From: Bdellovibrionales bacterium CG10_big_fil_rev_8_21_14_0_10_45_34
Lineage (GTDB): Bacteria > Bdellovibrionota > Bdellovibrionia > Bdellovibrionales > 1-14-0-10-45-34
DNA: 64,000 bases
Direction: 5' to 3'
Assembly (NCBI GenBank): GCA_002778785.1
Contig: PEZS01000005.1
Location: forward strand, 42,483-106,482
Shown here: one piece after another, positions 15,847 through 64,000 of the stretch
How the letters are laid out: each line of letters opens with the position of its first letter
Numbering within the stretch: the first letter of the stretch is position 1
The notes under the pieces: generated by a model
The model's input: the letters and a program-made list of their open reading frames with translations, nothing else
What the model was told of the DNA's origin: nothing
The model's database searches: none
Translations under genes and position numbers: made by a program

Positions 15847-17262
15847 TTGGAAGCAAACCTTTGGGAAAGCATCAAAACGAGTTTACGCCAGAAAAACCCT
15901 GAAAACCGGGGCCTTGATACTTGGATAAACCCAGTCAGACTGGGTGGCTTTGAGGACACCTCGAGCGGTCGACGTATTAAACTTCTTGTGCCCTCTGAAC
16001 TCCATGAATATTGGATCTCCCAACACCTACTCGATCAAATTTGTGCAGAGATCGCGCAAATATATAAGACTCCATTTACGGTGGAGCTAGTTGTATCGGC
16101 AGATGGTCCCTCCGAGCTTTCCCATGATGAACAGCAGGGCTCTTCGCTGGCCGCTTCAAATCAAAGTTGGAATACAGTATCTCAGCCGACTGTCTCTGTT
16201 GGGCCATCTGCCCAACCGTCTCCTGTCAGGCACGATTTTTTGAACCGCGACTATACCTTTGGAACCTTCGTCGTTGGCAGAAACAACGAATTTGCTCACG
16301 CGGCCTCCTTTTCGGTGGCAGAAAACCCAGGCGGCAAATACAACCCACTTTTTATATGCGGTCCTACGGGAATGGGGAAAACCCACCTCCTCAATGCCGT
16401 CGGTAACTTTATCGCCAGCACGCGACCGGATCTGCGTATTCGCTATATAGCTGCCGAACGCTTTCTTACCGAGTGCGTGGCGGGGATCCGTCATGGTGAT
16501 ATGGAGAAGTTTCGCCAGCGCTATCGCGAAAAGAGTGACGTTTTGCTGATGGATGATATTCAGGTTCTCGGACGAGGAGAAACCGTTCAAGAGGAGTTCT
16601 TTAATACTCTTAATAATTTCTTTGAGAAAAATGGCCAGGTCGTTGTCGCCAGTGATCGGATGCCTAAGGATATTCAGGGTTTAGAAGATCGAATCCGTAC
16701 GCGACTTGAATGGGGGCTTATTGCCGACATTCAAATGCCCGAAATTGAAACCCGTGTGGCCATTTTAAGATACAAGGCGGAGCAAAGAGGCATCAATTTA
16801 CCGGATGAAGTCGTCAGTTTTATAGCTAGAATTTCTAGGCGTTCGATCCGAGAGCTTGAAGGTAATCTTAATAAAGTAAAGATGTTCACAGACTTTCAGG
16901 GCATCCCTATCGGTCTTGATGTGGTGAAACAGATTCTGGCCACTCATTTTTCGGAAGTGAGTCAGCTCACCACTGAGGACATTCAGAAAATTGTCTCTCA
17001 GCATTATCAAATAAAACAGATGGATCTTAAATCAAATACTCGATCGAAACCTATCGTCATGGCCCGGCAAATGGCGATGTATTTGGCCAAAAAGTACCTC
17101 GATAAATCTCTTACAGATATTGGAAGATCTTTTGGGGGGAGAGACCACACGACGGTAATTAATGCACTGCGCCGGGTAAAGGATCAACTAGATAAAAATA
17201 CGGAAATCAAGAGAGATCTCCAGGACTTAGAAAGCAGAATCCACAATATCACAGGGTTGTGA
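15847..17262 (+). CDS. dnaA: Chromosomal replication initiator DnaA
   Basis: DnaA binds 9-mer boxes at oriC and melts the origin. Domain I starts with LWESIKTSLRQ, a variable linker follows, then the AAA+ domain with Walker A GPTGMGKT and Walker B VLLMDDIQVL, and domain IV with the DnaA signature GGRDHTTVINAL near the end. I prefer the TTG at 15847, because GGGGGGAG lies just upstream and domain I then begins as in other DnaA proteins (471 residues). A GTG at 15817 would add ten residues but has no ribosome site. The next gap carries DnaA boxes, so autoregulation is possible. Confidence 0.97.
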   Translation: MEANLWESIKTSLRQKNPENRGLDTWINPVRLGGFEDTSSGRRIKLLVPSELHEYWISQHLLDQICAEIAQIYKTPFTVELVVSADGPSELSHDEQQGSSLAASNQSWNTVSQPTVSVGPSAQPSPVRHDFLNRDYTFGTFVVGRNNEFAHAASFSVAENPGGKYNPLFICGPTGMGKTHLLNAVGNFIASTRPDLRIRYIAAERFLTECVAGIRHGDMEKFRQRYREKSDVLLMDDIQVLGRGETVQEEFFNTLNNFFEKNGQVVVASDRMPKDIQGLEDRIRTRLEWGLIADIQMPEIETRVAILRYKAEQRGINLPDEVVSFIARISRRSIRELEGNLNKVKMFTDFQGIPIGLDVVKQILATHFSEVSQLTTEDIQKIVSQHYQIKQMDLKSNTRSKPIVMARQMAMYLAKKYLDKSLTDIGRSFGGRDHTTVINALRRVKDQLDKNTEIKRDLQDLESRIHNITGL

Positions 17263-57455: not shown

Positions 57456-59171
57456 TTAGCGGCGTTTGCGAGAGAGGGCTCTGCGAGTTTGGGATTTCTT
57501 TGGTGTCTCGGATCGCTCAAGTTTAGCAGTTAGCTTCAATTTTTCTTGATAGCTCTTTACAAAGTCGACTTTTCCCGGAGGCAAGTGTAGGCTATAAGAC
57601 CGCGGAAGCGTAACATTCTTTGTTAGAGCCGTAGATTTTAAATCTGGATTGTAGAAGCGCAGTTCTTCGAGATTGAGTCCGGCCACCACTGCGATCGTCT
57701 TTGGGCGCATTCTTTGACTCAAAATAATTTGCTCAGTGACTAGCGGTTCACTCTTAAACACCGTGCCAAAAATTTCTTGCGAATACTTTTGTACGTGAAG
57801 CGCAGCCAAATATTCAGCATAAAAATTTGAAGAAGCAAATCCAAAAGACTTTAAGTGAACTTTTTCGATAATGTTAATAAGGTCGCGTGAACGTGTCTGT
57901 TTAATAGCTTTAAGTAGATTTCCGGCGCCATGGTTATAGGCTGTTAAAGCTAAGGGCCAACTTTTGAATATGCGATAGTTTTCTTTCAAGAGTTTCGCGG
58001 CAGCGACGGTGGCTTTTAGCGGCGAATTGCGTTCATCTACGTGGTCACCTACGTGTAACGCCTTTTTCTTTCCGGTCACTGGCATAAACTGCCAGATTCC
58101 GCTTGCGCCGACTTTGCTCATTGCCTTCGTGTTGAAGCTGCTCTCAACAAGGGGCAAACGAGTCAACTCAACAGGCATGTCGTTATGGGCAAAAATTTCT
58201 TCCATTTGAGTCAAGTAAAGCTGACTGTTTTCAAGGCCAGACTTAAAAAAATCTTTTTGACCCTTCTGAGCCCGAACGGAATTCAGAGCTTCGCGAATAA
58301 CGGCTTTTCTATTGCCTTTAATTTCTTTCAGCTGGTTGTAAATTTGAGCCTCAAGACCTTTAAGCCCTCGGTAATTCTTTCGAGAAGACAAATTTGTTAG
58401 AGCCTTCTTTACTGTAGCTACTCTCTGGCTAACAACACTCTTTGCTTTGTGGTAGCGAGTCCACTTATGACCAGAGCCAGAATAGATATCTCTGATATCA
58501 ATTTTATCAAAGACAATCCAAGGGTATTCACTGTGGTGAACTAAAGATACGTGTGAGCCGTATACCGCATAAATGCTCGCCCAGAAGGTAACTCGCTTTT
58601 GAAAGTCTTCAGGAACTTTAAACACCTCCGGCACTCGGTCGAACTTGTCAGTTACAATGTCACCAAGTACGAAGGTTTGATTATCGAATTGTTCACTCAG
58701 ATAGGGGATTGAAGTGAAGGGATTTACTTCTTTGGAATCGAGCAATCTTGCTTCTTCTTCACGACGAGTTTCAAGATCCAGTATTTGAGAACTATTGAAT
58801 TCAGACTTAAGATGAGTGCCCTTCGTACCAGGATCTTCAATTGTTGAAGCGAACGCATCGCTTGTTTGAACATTTTCAACAGCGGATTTTAAAAACTCAG
58901 AGAGGTTACGGGCGATGTGAGTGTCGCTCAGATTATGGATAAAATCCTCAGCAATAGTTCCTTCAATACGACTTGCAACCGCAAGCCTCATTTGACTAGC
59001 CCATGAACTCGCATGTTTAGACAGGGTTCGCGGAATCGATGGAGACCAGATTGTAGAGCTAAACAAGAACCATAGGCCGCCAAGAACCAAAAAAATACCC
59101 AAACCTCTAAAAAGAGGCTTAAAGCTCAAAGGGGCGCGGTAAACATTTAAAGGTAAGCGGTTTGGTTTCAC
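57456..59171 (-). CDS. MltD-like membrane-bound lytic transglycosylase
   Basis: This 571-residue enzyme cleaves peptidoglycan with 1,6-anhydro product formation. A membrane segment at about residues 18-40 anchors it. The SLT catalytic domain lies at about 310-440: the catalytic glutamate in LPLVESSFN, SGIWQFMPVTG, and TAYNHGAGNLLKAI. A LysM-like or MltD-type segment follows (VVAGLNLEELRFYNPDL), then a strongly basic tail ending RRALSRKRR. In a predator such enzymes may act on self or prey wall; the sequence does not say which. Confidence 0.87.
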   Translation of the reverse strand: MKPNRLPLNVYRAPLSFKPLFRGLGIFLVLGGLWFLFSSTIWSPSIPRTLSKHASSWASQMRLAVASRIEGTIAEDFIHNLSDTHIARNLSEFLKSAVENVQTSDAFASTIEDPGTKGTHLKSEFNSSQILDLETRREEEARLLDSKEVNPFTSIPYLSEQFDNQTFVLGDIVTDKFDRVPEVFKVPEDFQKRVTFWASIYAVYGSHVSLVHHSEYPWIVFDKIDIRDIYSGSGHKWTRYHKAKSVVSQRVATVKKALTNLSSRKNYRGLKGLEAQIYNQLKEIKGNRKAVIREALNSVRAQKGQKDFFKSGLENSQLYLTQMEEIFAHNDMPVELTRLPLVESSFNTKAMSKVGASGIWQFMPVTGKKKALHVGDHVDERNSPLKATVAAAKLLKENYRIFKSWPLALTAYNHGAGNLLKAIKQTRSRDLINIIEKVHLKSFGFASSNFYAEYLAALHVQKYSQEIFGTVFKSEPLVTEQIILSQRMRPKTIAVVAGLNLEELRFYNPDLKSTALTKNVTLPRSYSLHLPPGKVDFVKSYQEKLKLTAKLERSETPKKSQTRRALSRKRR

Positions 59172-59341
59172 TCTGCTTTATTAATAAGCAAGGTCAGTGC
59201 CACTAGTTTTAAAAACCAGCTGTTGTTATAATGGCTTAGGCATCCCATAGTGAGGCGAAAGTGTCATTCTTGGCATTCACCGTAAAGAAAGTTCAAAATA
59301 CTGTTTAACTTTTCGACAGCTTCGCTACCCTACTAAGAGTA

Positions 59342-60784
59342 GTGAGAACAACAAAGCGAGTCCATACAGCCATAATTAGTGACCTTCATCTCTGCGAAGC
59401 TGAGCAGGAATCCGAACATAGGCCTCTCTGGAAGAAGTACAAAACCCGCCAGTTCTTTTTTGATACGAGTTTTAGGCAGTTTATCGAGCACATCCTTCGC
59501 AAAGCTGGCAACGATCCCGTTGAGCTTGTCTTAAATGGAGACATTTTTGATTTTGACAGCGTTGTTCGCTTCGATGCAGATGCACACTATCGTACAAGCT
59601 GGCTCGAGAGAAAACGCGGGTTAAGGCCCCAAGAAGAGAAGTCCCTCTACAAAATCAAAACGATTCTCGCAGATCATTCTGAATGGACACTTGCCGTTAA
59701 GTATTTCTTGAGCTGCGATGCCTCGAATCGATTGGTATTTGTCATTGGCAATCACGACCTAGAACTTCATTTTTTAAGTGTGCAGGCGGAAATCCTTGAA
59801 GCGCTTGGCGAGCCGCTTGATTCACAGCGAGTTTTGTTTTGCGCATGGTTTTATATTAGCGAGCAAGACACTTTAATAGAACATGGCAATCAGTATGATC
59901 CTTATTGTGTTTGCCAAGATCCGATTAATCCGTTCATTAAAAAGGCTCAGCGCATGGAGGTGCGAATTCCCTTCGGCAACCTGGCAACTCGCTACATGAT
60001 GAACGGTATGGGGTTATTTAACCCACACGTAGACTCTAATTACATCATGTCGATTCCTGAATACATGCGACTTTTCTTTAAATATCTTTTGCGCAATCAA
60101 CCGCTCATCATGTGGACATGGTTTTGGGGGGCCGTCGTAACGATGTTTCAATCGCTCAGAGATCGACTCCTGCCCGAGCTAAAAGATCCGATGCGAGTTG
60201 AAGATAGAATCGAGGAAATTGCAAAAAACTCCAACGCGACTCCTAGAATGGTTAGAGAGCTACGAGAGTTGTTTGCCTACCCGGCGGCAAGTCATCCTTG
60301 GTTGATCGCACAAGAGCTTTGGCTTGATCGAGCGTTTCTGGTGATGTTGGCATTCTTGGCGATTTTTCAGATCTTTACATTTTTTAAGCTCGCCTATGAG
60401 GTGGAGTTTTATTGGTTTCTAGGCGTGCTCGCACTGTTCATACCGTTTTTTGTTTTTTACACAAAATCCATTCGATCTTCTGTGGCCAAGTTTAAGGAGC
60501 CAAACGAAAGACTGCTTGTGCTTACAAGCCGAATTACGGGCGTGAAGCGAGTTGTCTACGGGCACACTCATGTTGCCAGACACGAGATGATTGGTTACGT
60601 CGAGCACTTAAATTCTGGCTGTTGGTCACCCGCGTTTTTAGATGTTGAATGCACTCGGCCTTACGGCAAAAAAACGTTCGTATGGATTTATCCGACCGAT
60701 GAAAACTCCCGAGACGCAAAGCTCTTTGAGTTTTCAAGTGGGCAGTCTAAACAGGTCTATGGCAGATTAAAACTAGAGGCCTAA
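59342..60784 (+). CDS. Metallophosphoesterase with membrane helices
   Basis: This 480-residue calcineurin-like phosphoesterase has the metal-ligand series ISDLHLCE, LNGDIFDFD, IGNHDLE and YGHTHVARHE. GNQYDPYC lies between. Between the phosphoesterase blocks are hydrophobic segments near residues 335-380 (VMLAFLAIFQIFTFF, FYWFLGVLALFIPFFVFY), so the enzyme is membrane-attached. The pattern resembles UDP-diacylglucosamine or other lipid-linked phosphohydrolases, but the substrate is unknown. It starts at GTG 59342 with only a weak site. Confidence 0.85.
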   Translation: MRTTKRVHTAIISDLHLCEAEQESEHRPLWKKYKTRQFFFDTSFRQFIEHILRKAGNDPVELVLNGDIFDFDSVVRFDADAHYRTSWLERKRGLRPQEEKSLYKIKTILADHSEWTLAVKYFLSCDASNRLVFVIGNHDLELHFLSVQAEILEALGEPLDSQRVLFCAWFYISEQDTLIEHGNQYDPYCVCQDPINPFIKKAQRMEVRIPFGNLATRYMMNGMGLFNPHVDSNYIMSIPEYMRLFFKYLLRNQPLIMWTWFWGAVVTMFQSLRDRLLPELKDPMRVEDRIEEIAKNSNATPRMVRELRELFAYPAASHPWLIAQELWLDRAFLVMLAFLAIFQIFTFFKLAYEVEFYWFLGVLALFIPFFVFYTKSIRSSVAKFKEPNERLLVLTSRITGVKRVVYGHTHVARHEMIGYVEHLNSGCWSPAFLDVECTRPYGKKTFVWIYPTDENSRDAKLFEFSSGQSKQVYGRLKLEA

Positions 60785-60844
60785 ACCGGCCCCGATGAAG
60801 CTTTTCCGCGAAGACGCGACGCACTAAGGGCTAAAATTTCCACC

Positions 60845-60865
60845 AGATCAAGAATATCTTGATCT
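60845..60865. promoter_or_regulatory. Perfect inverted repeat upstream of the histone gene
   Basis: AGATCAAGA-ATA-TCTTGATCT has nine-base arms and a three-base centre, 115 bases before the histone start and 61 after the phosphoesterase stop. It could be an operator or, since TTTTGG follows, a weak terminator of the upstream gene. Confidence 0.45.
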
Positions 60866-60979
60866 TTTGGTTCAAACTTCAGTTAATACGATGTTTGAGA
60901 ACAAATTAAACAAATAATGAGTTTTTATTGAAACCAAGAAACCGTAAGAGTTTCTGCATTGAGAAGATAGGAGAAAGCC

Positions 60980-61174
60980 ATGTCTGATACTTTGGTTGTT
61001 ACTAGCAAGGTGAAAAAAATCATTAAAGAAAAAGGCGGATGCAACACTTCAGGTGAAACGATTGAAATGTTGACTAAAGCTGTAGAGCGCCTCTGTTTAA
61101 AAGGTGTTGAGTCTGCAAAATCAGATGGCCGTAAAACTGTAATGGCCCGCGATATCGTTATCGACCACATCTAA
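60980..61174 (+). CDS. Bacterial histone, single histone fold (HBb/Bd0055-like)
   Basis: This 64-residue protein is one histone fold and nothing else. Helix 1 is TSKVKKIIKEKG (8-19), loop 1 CNTSGE, the long helix 2 TIEMLTKAVERLCLKG onwards (27-49), loop 2 GRKTVMARD with the Arg-Thr-Val type contact of histones (51-54) and the Arg57-Asp58 pair, and short helix 3 IVIDHI. It closely follows my recollection of Bd0055/HBb of Bdellovibrio bacteriovorus, a dimeric histone reported to bind DNA without nucleosome wrapping and to be abundant. Start ATG 60980 follows AGGAG; a strong terminator follows, so the gene is monocistronic. Confidence 0.95.
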   Translation: MSDTLVVTSKVKKIIKEKGGCNTSGETIEMLTKAVERLCLKGVESAKSDGRKTVMARDIVIDHI

Positions 61175-61197
61175 TCGCCTTGGCAGTTTAAAATGAG

Positions 61198-61227
61198 AAA
61201 AGCCCCTGCTCGTGAGCATGGGCTTTT
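61198..61227 (+). terminator. Strong rho-independent terminator of the histone gene
   Basis: AAAAGCCC (61198-61205) pairs with GGGCTTTT (61220-61227), with an inner TGCTC/GAGCA extension, and a run of six T residues at 61224-61229. It is the most complete terminator in the window. Confidence 0.92.
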
Positions 61228-61390
61228 TTGTTTTCAAGAATGAGTAGAGCCCTACTCTGCAATTCTCCACCGACTTTGACCGCTTATCCGCGTCATTCTG
61301 ATACGACTCCAACACGATTCGTACCAGGAAGGCGATCCTGGAGGGGCTCATCGTCAAGACAGAGGCAAATGAGGCTATTTCTATAGTTGA

Positions 61391-61708
61391 ATAGCGAAAT
61401 TTCCATGCTGTTTTAACATTATGTTTAATAGATGGTTTGAAGACGCCAAGATCCCCTGTTTGATACTTGGGGCTAGTCGGGTAGGCAATGAAATCGACTT
61501 AGTTCTCGAAATGCCCAAAGAAGTTTTTGCGATTGAGGTCAAAGCGACTTCTCGCCCTTCAAGCCGAGATGCGAGGAATTTGTTGGATTTCAAATTGAGT
61601 GATTCGTCAAAAAAACTAAAAAAATTTTTAATTCATCAAGGGCAGGAGTATAAGACGTTTGAAGACGTCAGCTGTCTTCCGGCGGCAGCAATGTTTTGCT
61701 CTTACTGA
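61391..61708 (+). pseudogene. Remnant of a DUF4143-type ATPase (C-terminal nuclease-fold domain only)
   Basis: An open frame from 61391, with ATG at 61421, encodes about 100 residues resembling the C-terminal end of AAA ATPases with a DUF4143 domain. GNEIDLVLEMPKEVFAIEVK is the PD-(D/E)xK-like core of that domain. The ATPase domain, normally about 250 residues upstream, is absent; the frame is stopped by TGA at 61388, and only noncoding sequence precedes it. This is best read as a decayed gene. It lies on the plus strand between the histone and the HNH fragment. Confidence 0.7.
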
Positions 61709-61730
61709 GTTGCCCACTCGTTTTCGTAGG

Positions 61731-62003
61731 CTAGCCGTTGGTGTTTTCTTTCTGATATCTTGCTATATGATTCACTCCAAATGTTTTCATTGCCGCGCGC
61801 TGATTGCACGAAAAGCAAAGCATTCGCAAATTGCGCTCACTCGTTTCACCGTTTAATGCAAGCGGCTTCACATGATCATATTGTAGTAGATGCGTGCTTC
61901 CACATTTTGGGCATCTGCCGTTATCTCGAAGCCACACTCTGTGCTTCACTTCGGCAGGAATGTATCTTGTAACGCGCTGTTTAGTCGCGATGGGGTTCTG
62001 CAG
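61731..62003 (-). pseudogene. HNH endonuclease gene, C-terminal half (cut by IS3 element)
   Basis: This part encodes the HNH nuclease domain. The conserved approach TRYIPAEVKHRVW is followed by CPKC (first zinc pair), YDHVKPL (the catalytic His), a mid Asn and CFSCNQRA (second zinc pair). The frame is open up to the IS junction at 62003/62004. The 4-base target duplication GCAG occurs at 62000-62003 and again at 63217-63220. Removing the IS and one copy rejoins this in frame with the piece starting at 63217. It could be translated alone from GTG 61949, but that is unproven. Confidence 0.87.
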
Positions 62004-62010
62004 GTGAGCC

Positions 62011-62790
62011 TCACCCTGTTTTTAGTACCGGCAGATTTTTTTTAGGGTCTATCACAGTCGGTTGTAGGTCGGCAAACTTTTTTGGCGTTAAATAATCGAG
62101 GGAACTGTGGGGACGTTCATTGTTATAGTGATGTAGCCATTTGTTTATTCTCCTTCGAGCGACTTCAATGTTTGGGAAAGTGTTTAAACTTAAGCATTCG
62201 CTTCTGAACTTACCGTTGAAACTCTCTACATATGCGTTCTGAACTGGCTTTCCTGGATCAATAAAATGAAGAATAATGTTGTTGCGATTCGCCCAGGTGA
62301 CGAACACGTGGTTTGTGAACTCAGGGCCATTATCAAGTATAATGTGCCTTGGTAGCTTAATCCGAGTTTTGAGCTGCTCCAGATAATCTACAACCGCATA
62401 TCCATGCATGCTTCGACTTACGAAAATTTCTGGAACTTCTCGAGTATATGTATCGATAAGAGTAAAGCAGCGAAATGGGTCGCCGTTGCTCAATCGACTA
62501 AGAACAAAATCTACAGACCAAACGTCACCCTGACGGCAGGCCTGCGGCAACCTCTCCTGGGGAACATACTTGATCCTACTGCGCTTAATCTTCTGAGGTA
62601 CAAGCAAACTCATCGTCTTAAGCAGACGGTAAACTCGCTTACCATTTACTTCAAAACCCTTGCTTCTAAGTACGGCCGAGACCCGAGGCTGTCCATAATA
62701 GGGATGTTTGTCCTTAATCTCGAGTATCGAACACAAGAGGTTAGGATCTTCACGGCGACGACTCTTGTAGTTTAACTGCGAGCGGCTCAT
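62011..62790 (-). CDS. IS3-family transposase OrfB (DDE domain)
   Basis: This is the catalytic part of the transposase. From ATG 62790 it has 259 residues, with the DDE triad Asp94 (WSVDFV), Asp153 (LDNGPEF) and Glu189 (YVESFNGKFR), the last two 35 residues apart as in rve-type integrases. HPYYGQPRVSAVLR is the N-terminal HTH_21 part. The frame stays open upstream past 62886, so OrfB is probably made mainly as an OrfAB fusion by a -1 frameshift. The stop lies inside the left terminal repeat. Confidence 0.95.
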   Translation of the reverse strand: MSRSQLNYKSRRREDPNLLCSILEIKDKHPYYGQPRVSAVLRSKGFEVNGKRVYRLLKTMSLLVPQKIKRSRIKYVPQERLPQACRQGDVWSVDFVLSRLSNGDPFRCFTLIDTYTREVPEIFVSRSMHGYAVVDYLEQLKTRIKLPRHIILDNGPEFTNHVFVTWANRNNIILHFIDPGKPVQNAYVESFNGKFRSECLSLNTFPNIEVARRRINKWLHHYNNERPHSSLDYLTPKKFADLQPTVIDPKKNLPVLKTG

Positions 62791-62873
62791 AGCAACAAGA
62801 TTGCTGGCGCGCCGCTGGCTTACTTGATGATTTTTAACTAGATTTAGCGCTAAATTGCGTCGCTGCTGAACAC

Positions 62874-63149
62874 TTAACTTTTTTTTAGAGCGGAACGCAA
62901 TAAGGCAATTTCTCTATCGCGCTCTTTAAGCTTCTTCTCAAGGCGATTAATCTTTGCCCGACGCTGACGTTCCCCAGGATAGACTGGCGCACCCCGACTA
63001 TCACGCAGAATACGATAAAACGCCCCCTCGCTAACTTGAAAATCTCGACTAATTTCTATAAGCGAACGGCCCTGAGCGAAAGCGCGCAATATTCCCTCTA
63101 TCTCTTCCTTTGAACGTTTTTTTAATGACACAAATCCCATCCTTTTCAC
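62874..63149 (-). CDS. IS3-family OrfA (DNA-binding subunit)
   Basis: This is the 91-residue OrfA. It has a helix-turn-helix (IEGILRAFAQGRSLIEISRD, then FQVSEGAFYRILRD) and a leucine-zipper-like helix (INRLEKKLKERDREIALLRS). It binds the terminal repeats and mates with the catalytic part. It ends in ALKKS and TAA at a run of eight A residues on its coding strand, where the OrfB frame takes over. Confidence 0.93.
   Translation of the reverse strand: MKRMGFVSLKKRSKEEIEGILRAFAQGRSLIEISRDFQVSEGAFYRILRDSRGAPVYPGERQRRAKINRLEKKLKERDREIALLRSALKKS
62879..62886 (-). other. Programmed -1 frameshift site (A8)
   Basis: On the minus strand the sequence CTAAAAAAAAGTTAA ends orfA. Slipping one base back on the A run continues as AAA AAG TTA AGT in the OrfB frame, which is open for over 30 codons before the ATG at 62790. 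This is the expected arrangement for IS3 OrfAB synthesis. Confidence 0.75.
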
Positions 63150-63216
63150 CTCTAATTAGTTGAGAATCTGGCCTAACTCAACCCGTTAAGTGGTACTAAA
63201 AATGGGGGGAACCGCA

Positions 63217-64000
63217 GCAGTTGGAGGTTCACTTCGTTTTTGGTGTCGGTAGAGTTTTGTCTGGTTTGTTCGTGGTCATGTTCAGGAACTATCACTTCCG
63301 AAGCCTTGTTTCGACTTCGGGAAGTTTGCTCTTGTCCAGGTTCGTCGGCCATGAACTCGGAAATTTCTTTTCGGTTTTGAATACTTTGATCGTGTCGGGA
63401 ATGGCCACCGGCTAAATCAGATTCTCTGCTTGGGTTTCGGATGGTTTGAACGTTCCCGACTTGGATAGCTGCAAACTCGGAGGTTTCTTTTCTTTCATTC
63501 GCGTTGTGGCGGGTATTTTTGTTACCCAGGCTGTCGTTGCTGCTAACACTTCGTGCTGCTTCGGCGCGCCTCTTGCCAAAGCTCCTTTGCTCTAGTCGCT
63601 CGGCGCTAAGATTTGCCATTTCAGAGATGAGCTCTGCCCATCCCATGTTAGCACCCTTGATGCCAAGTAAGGCTCGCACGACTTGCAGCTTATCTTTAAC
63701 CTCATCCGTTATGACAAACCGTACTTCAGTGTGGGTTTCTGAAATAACTCGCTCCTTCTCGCGAGGTATTGTTGTTTCAAAGCCAATAGCGAAAAGTACC
63801 TTTTCTGCTTCTCTCGTTGATTTGTTCTCTAGTTTAGCTAAAACCTCCAGCTTCTGTTTGCTGTTCATGGGAATGGCCGCTTTTTTCGATTCTCTAAAAA
63901 GGCTCTGAGCCTGAGAGATATTCGTTAGCGAAAGTGCCCCAGATTCGATCTTCGCTTTCACTTGCGGAATCTCATTCATTAGCCGCAGTGCTTGAATGCG
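63217..64000 (-). pseudogene. HNH endonuclease gene, N-terminal half (cut by IS3 element and by the right edge)
   Basis: The frame reads from beyond base 64000 (RIQALRLMNEIPQVKAKIES) to the IS at 63217. It continues through a helical domain (VRFVITDEVKDKLQVVRALL, MGWAELISEMANLSAERLE), then a polar repeat region. As far as I recall, this architecture matches HNH proteins of Bdellovibrio. At the insertion point Asn-Leu-Gln-Leu would continue directly into Gln-Asn-Pro-Ile of the 61731-62003 piece. Its stop at 63173 lies within the IS and gives a nonsense tail, so it is disrupted. The true start is outside the window. Confidence 0.85.
63254..63493 (-). repeat. Four degenerate 20-residue tandem repeats in the HNH gene
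   Basis: The linker before the HNH domain is four units of about 20 residues, or 57-63 bases: RKETSEFAAIQVGNVQTIRN, SRESDLAGGHSRHDQSIQN, RKEISEFMADEPGQEQTSRS and RNKASEVIVPEHDHEQTRQN. The shared pattern is R-K-E-x-S-E near the start and Q-T/S near the end. The repeats are diverged at DNA level. Confidence 0.7.

Follow-up and report, generated by a model that had tools for sequence, protein, structure and literature searches.

The histone gene and its product

The DNA analysed here, hereafter the window, is a stretch of 64,000 nucleotides of contig PEZS01000005.1 from Bdellovibrionales bacterium CG10_big_fil_rev_8_21_14_0_10_45_34. At its centre of interest lies an open reading frame of 64 codons on the plus strand (Table 1), the product of which, MSDTLVVTSKVKKIIKEKGGCNTSGETIEMLTKAVERLCLKGVESAKSDGRKTVMARDIVIDHI, was proposed in an initial annotation to be a single-fold bacterial histone of the kind represented by Bd0055 (HBb) of Bdellovibrio bacteriovorus, a known family and hence no new system. 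We confirmed the open reading frame to be a real gene, far beyond chance, because its product aligns with Bd0055 (PDB 8fvx) in phmmer over residues 1–64 (E = 1.3e-28, 50/64 identical), matches Pfam family PF00808 with a score above the gathering threshold, and is encoded, itself or as a close relative, by 58 of 59 relatives from the same order, all belonging to other families. One of these 58, G029, shows a match only to a ZZ histone. Among proteins of known structure, 8fvx and 8cmp, both entries for Bd0055/HBb, come closest and align over the full length (E ~1e-28).

An AlphaFold2 model of the monomer, built from 43 orthologues, reached a mean predicted local distance difference test score of 88 in the best of five models; the remaining four averaged 67–75. 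The modelled helices comprise residues 2–19 and 25–48 and a third helix of only three residues (56–58). The top five Foldseek matches to this model in the PDB were all HBb, with TM-scores on the query of 0.79–0.84; behind them came Thermococcus HTkC, Leptospira HLp and archaeal histones. Within the limits of a monomer model, the histone fold is thus predicted, and with the similarity to Bd0055 both points put up for checking in the initial annotation came out in its favour.

The protein is an orthologue of HBb, that is, a "bacterial dimer" α3-truncated histone, a category defined through sequence clustering with Bd0055/HBb (PMC11390915). It clusters with HBb by sequence, both in phmmer and in the orthologue set, has the same length, and combines a short helix 2 with a helix 3 within the 3–4 residues typical of the category. 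Loop 2 carries the RKTxxxD motif and RD clamp (R51, K52, T53 and D58), including the Arg-Lys-Thr-Val loop noted earlier (residues 51–54), and the Ser-Lys of helix 1 and the DNA-contacting lysines (S9, K10, K12, K13, K16) are conserved in at least 77 of 78 other orthologues, the alignment on which all residue counts given here are based.

DNA-contact, clamp and cysteine residues

In HBb, DNA is contacted by K12, T23, S24, A25, K52, T53 and R57 as well as by T8, S9 and K10, through both side chains and backbones, and the clamp consists of R51 and D58 together with D49 (Hu et al. 2024, PMC11317129). All of these residues are identical in the present protein with the exception of A25, which is replaced by Gly, a change that could preserve a backbone contact. 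Among the orthologues S9, K10, T23, R51–M55, R57 and D58 are invariant, and T8, K12, S24 and D49 each vary in at most two sequences, so that every shared contact and the R51/D58 clamp are either invariant or at least 97% conserved. The Arg57-Asp58 pair highlighted in the initial annotation is present, but it combines one half of the R51–D58 clamp with a residue, R57, that contacts DNA (PMC11317129). The idea that cysteines 21 and 39 set the protein apart had to be abandoned: Cys39 is found in HBb and in 77 of the 78 orthologues, and position 21 is Cys in 45 and Met in 29, so the two appear as ordinary residues without distinguishing value.

Comparison with known histones

HBb (PDB 8FVX, 8FW7, 8CMP, 9EZZ, 9F0E) is separated from the present protein by 14 substitutions, e.g., with the HBb residue first, Q20G, M21C, A25G, V30M, A48S and L64I. 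The two genes share the same upstream neighbour and lie at similar distances from dnaA (45 kb here, 49 kb in B. bacteriovorus), whereas the downstream genes are unlike each other and no intact ZZ histone is encoded in the present genome. ZZ histones of the Bd3044 type have a related α3-truncated histone domain, at most 48% identical to the present protein, but own an N-terminal ZZ zinc-finger domain, for which there is no counterpart here, as the histone fold fills all 64 residues. HLp from Leptospira perolatii (PDB 9QT0) is likewise a short bacterial histone and matches in fold (TM-score 0.75 on the query), but has 38% identity and is described as a DNA-wrapping tetramer. The archaeal nucleosomal histones HMfA and HMfB have the histone fold, the RKT loop and the RD clamp in common with the protein; at ~30% identity, they differ in their longer helices 2 and 3, and in a tetramer-forming His and a minor-groove "sprocket" Arg that are both absent here.

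Transcription signals and expression

The gene is preceded by an AGGAG ~8 nt before the ATG, in agreement with the ribosome site claimed previously, and most orthologues are preceded by GGAG-type sites. Of the isolated position ascribed to the gene, the gap to the upstream gene stands, but that gene is co-directional and the pairing is conserved. Similarly, the terminator described as perfect is a strong one that contains a single mismatch (Table 1). It is plausible that the gene forms its own transcription unit, because of the upstream gap, the Shine-Dalgarno site and the strong terminator. A sigma-70 promoter scan of the intergenic region gave no consensus match, where shuffled sequences predict 1.7, a negative that carries little information, and a search of positions 59000–62000 for Rfam families gave no match. 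The hairpin between the metallophosphoesterase and histone genes may serve to terminate transcription of the former, or else be an operator.

Table 1 Features of the histone locus, given as positions in the window.
Feature	Position	Strand	Details
HBb/Bd0055-type bacterial histone gene, 64 residues	60980..61174	+	ATG at 60980, stop ends at 61174; open reading frame, Pfam, phmmer, orthologues, model
Shine-Dalgarno-like site	60965..60974	+	AGGAG within GATAGGAGAAAGCC-ATG
Upstream intergenic region, expected promoter location	60785..60979	+	195 bp, 61% A+T
Perfect 9-bp hairpin/palindrome		60845..60865		AGATCAAGAATATCTTGATCT = AGATCAAGA-ATA-TCTTGATCT; z −3.6 as RNA
Intrinsic terminator	61196..61229	+	14 pairs, one C-U mismatch, then T-tract; −18.4 kcal/mol, z −4.6
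Calcineurin-like metallophosphoesterase gene, upstream neighbour	59342..60784	+	hydrophobic, probably membrane, segments
dnaA, marking oriC	15862..17241	+	45 kb from the histone gene
95-residue open reading frame just 3' of the histone gene	61421..61708	+	no Pfam match
IS3-type element	62011..63210		imperfect terminal inverted repeats with TTTTTAGTACC
Transposase open reading frames	62011..62790, 62874..63149		within the IS3-type element
HNH-endonuclease gene, N-terminal part	63173..63979	−	
HNH-endonuclease gene, HNH part	61731..61949	−	

HBb is abundant and apparently essential in B. bacteriovorus, where attempts by two laboratories to delete its gene failed repeatedly (PMC10627809, PMC11317129). 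The codon adaptation of the present gene lies within the range of the ribosomal genes of the genome (0.779) and above that of 49 of 50 open reading frames in the window. As random 63-codon pieces of window genes equal it 10% of the time (length-matched P ~0.10), codon adaptation was rejected as proof of high expression. The high independent expression proposed initially is thus plausible in its second part, the separate unit, while a high level is weakly supported by codon bias and would follow mainly from orthology to the B. bacteriovorus protein.

Distribution and selection

The set of orthologues comprises 80 named loci, and a match was found in 259 of 290 genomes across the phylum (206/222 of those of good quality), those outside the class being more distant and frequently longer proteins. 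According to Hocher et al. 2023 (PMC10627809), 67% of Bdellovibrionota carry a homologue. These numbers run counter to the scarcity implied by the earlier remark that a second species would be useful for comparison. Phage and plasmid records were searched for histone homologues and none were found, therefore giving no sign there of a mobile origin. The gene is under strong purifying selection, because pairwise nonsynonymous divergence (dN) is 0.11–0.17 compared to a synonymous divergence (dS) of ~1 or more, or saturated.

Neighbourhood and position near dnaA

The metallophosphoesterase gene has a counterpart that is 60% identical directly before bd0055 in B. bacteriovorus, and a homologue is found in 55 of the 80 related loci, some of which are too short to reveal it; it is mostly situated directly upstream on the same strand with a gap of mostly 65–225 bp. 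We know of no functional link between the two genes. Downstream of the histone gene, the genes vary between loci. Here, the 95-residue open reading frame gives the impression of a C-terminal remnant of a DUF4143-type ATPase, and the IS3-type element further downstream seems to split an HNH-endonuclease gene.

Nineteen other genomes, which represent three further families, place the histone gene 43–102 kb from dnaA (median ~50 kb); they are non-independent through shared gene order and come in the majority from one family. The conserved location may mean that gene dosage couples histone supply to replication in cells that copy many chromosomes ahead of division.

A ZZ domain without a histone

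When the genome was searched with the protein and with PF00808, only this gene matched, and no second intact histone was found. A ZZ-histone query led to a ZZ domain (G000:C11:571272-571484; L126:973-1185, minus strand) in a 70-residue open reading frame, which is related to the N-terminal half of a Bd3044-type ZZ histone and has no histone domain; ~25 nt beyond it lies what looks like an NADH-dehydrogenase-like gene. As an adjoining histone-fold match accompanies the ZZ domain in 19/19 relatives that have one, the histone half of a Bd3044-type protein appears to be gone from this genome, with HBb as its sole histone. A permissive tblastn search 3' of the ZZ open reading frame for a histone remnant gave nothing convincing. 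That the stand-alone ZZ protein acts on HBb in trans, the halves of the fusion thus working as separate proteins, is an improbable though conceivable extension.

Proposed function

The gene almost certainly encodes an orthologue of the dimeric nucleoid-associated histone HBb. By analogy with HBb (PMC11317129), the 7-kDa α3-truncated protein would form a homodimer that binds double-stranded DNA without sequence specificity, with paired L1–L2 loops contributing K12, T23 and S24 from one monomer and K52, T53 and R57 from the other, and with further contacts from T8-S9-K10 at the start of helix 1. Most likely it would be an abundant protein of the nucleoid, the dimers of which bend chromosomal DNA and may coat it at high density, leading to nucleoid compaction. 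Dimerisation, bending or coating, abundance and essentiality are all expected here by orthology. Published accounts disagree on whether DNA is bent by HBb (PMC11317129) or stays straight within a sheath of it (PMC10627809), and nothing in the present sequence decides between the two.

Some points weigh against this assignment. For this species, expression, DNA binding and dimer state are all carried over from the orthologue. In addition, two differences from HBb, A25G (loop 1) and A48S (the position mutated in HBb toward tetramers), could alter packing details, although either state is found among other orthologues; and helix 3 is barely formed in the monomer-only model, as is the case in HBb.

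A role as a histone-fold transcription factor or regulator acting at specific promoters, and not in chromatin generally, is very improbable: PF00808 does include NF-Y-type transcription factors and some bacterial histones, e.g. the ZZ histone, are scarce, but the 64-residue protein carries no additional domain. Least probable of all is wrapping of DNA by tetramers as with archaeal histones or Leptospira HLp. The fold family is shared, HLp (9qt0) is a structural neighbour of the model, and PMC12701072 bears the title "DNA Wrapping by a tetrameric bacterial histone"; but helix 3 amounts to one short turn, residue 48 is Ser instead of the tetramer-forming His, and HBb is a dimer by size-exclusion chromatography with multi-angle light scattering that leaves DNA unwrapped (PMC10627809, PMC11317129).

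Significance

The HBb-type protein described here belongs among the orthologues of a known bacterial histone; it is real but ordinary, and as a single gene it adds little, HBb orthologues being already known from most Bdellovibrionota. What is added are the conserved origin-proximal position of the histone gene and the ZZ-only relic. Furthermore, comparison of the orthologues separates positions that tolerate change (e.g. 20, 21, 25, 37, 40 and 48) from those that never change. The natural variants thereby constitute a ready panel for deciding between bending and straight coating of DNA by HBb, especially at positions 25 and 48, where A48S falls on the residue that was altered in HBb with the aim of bringing DNA ends together.
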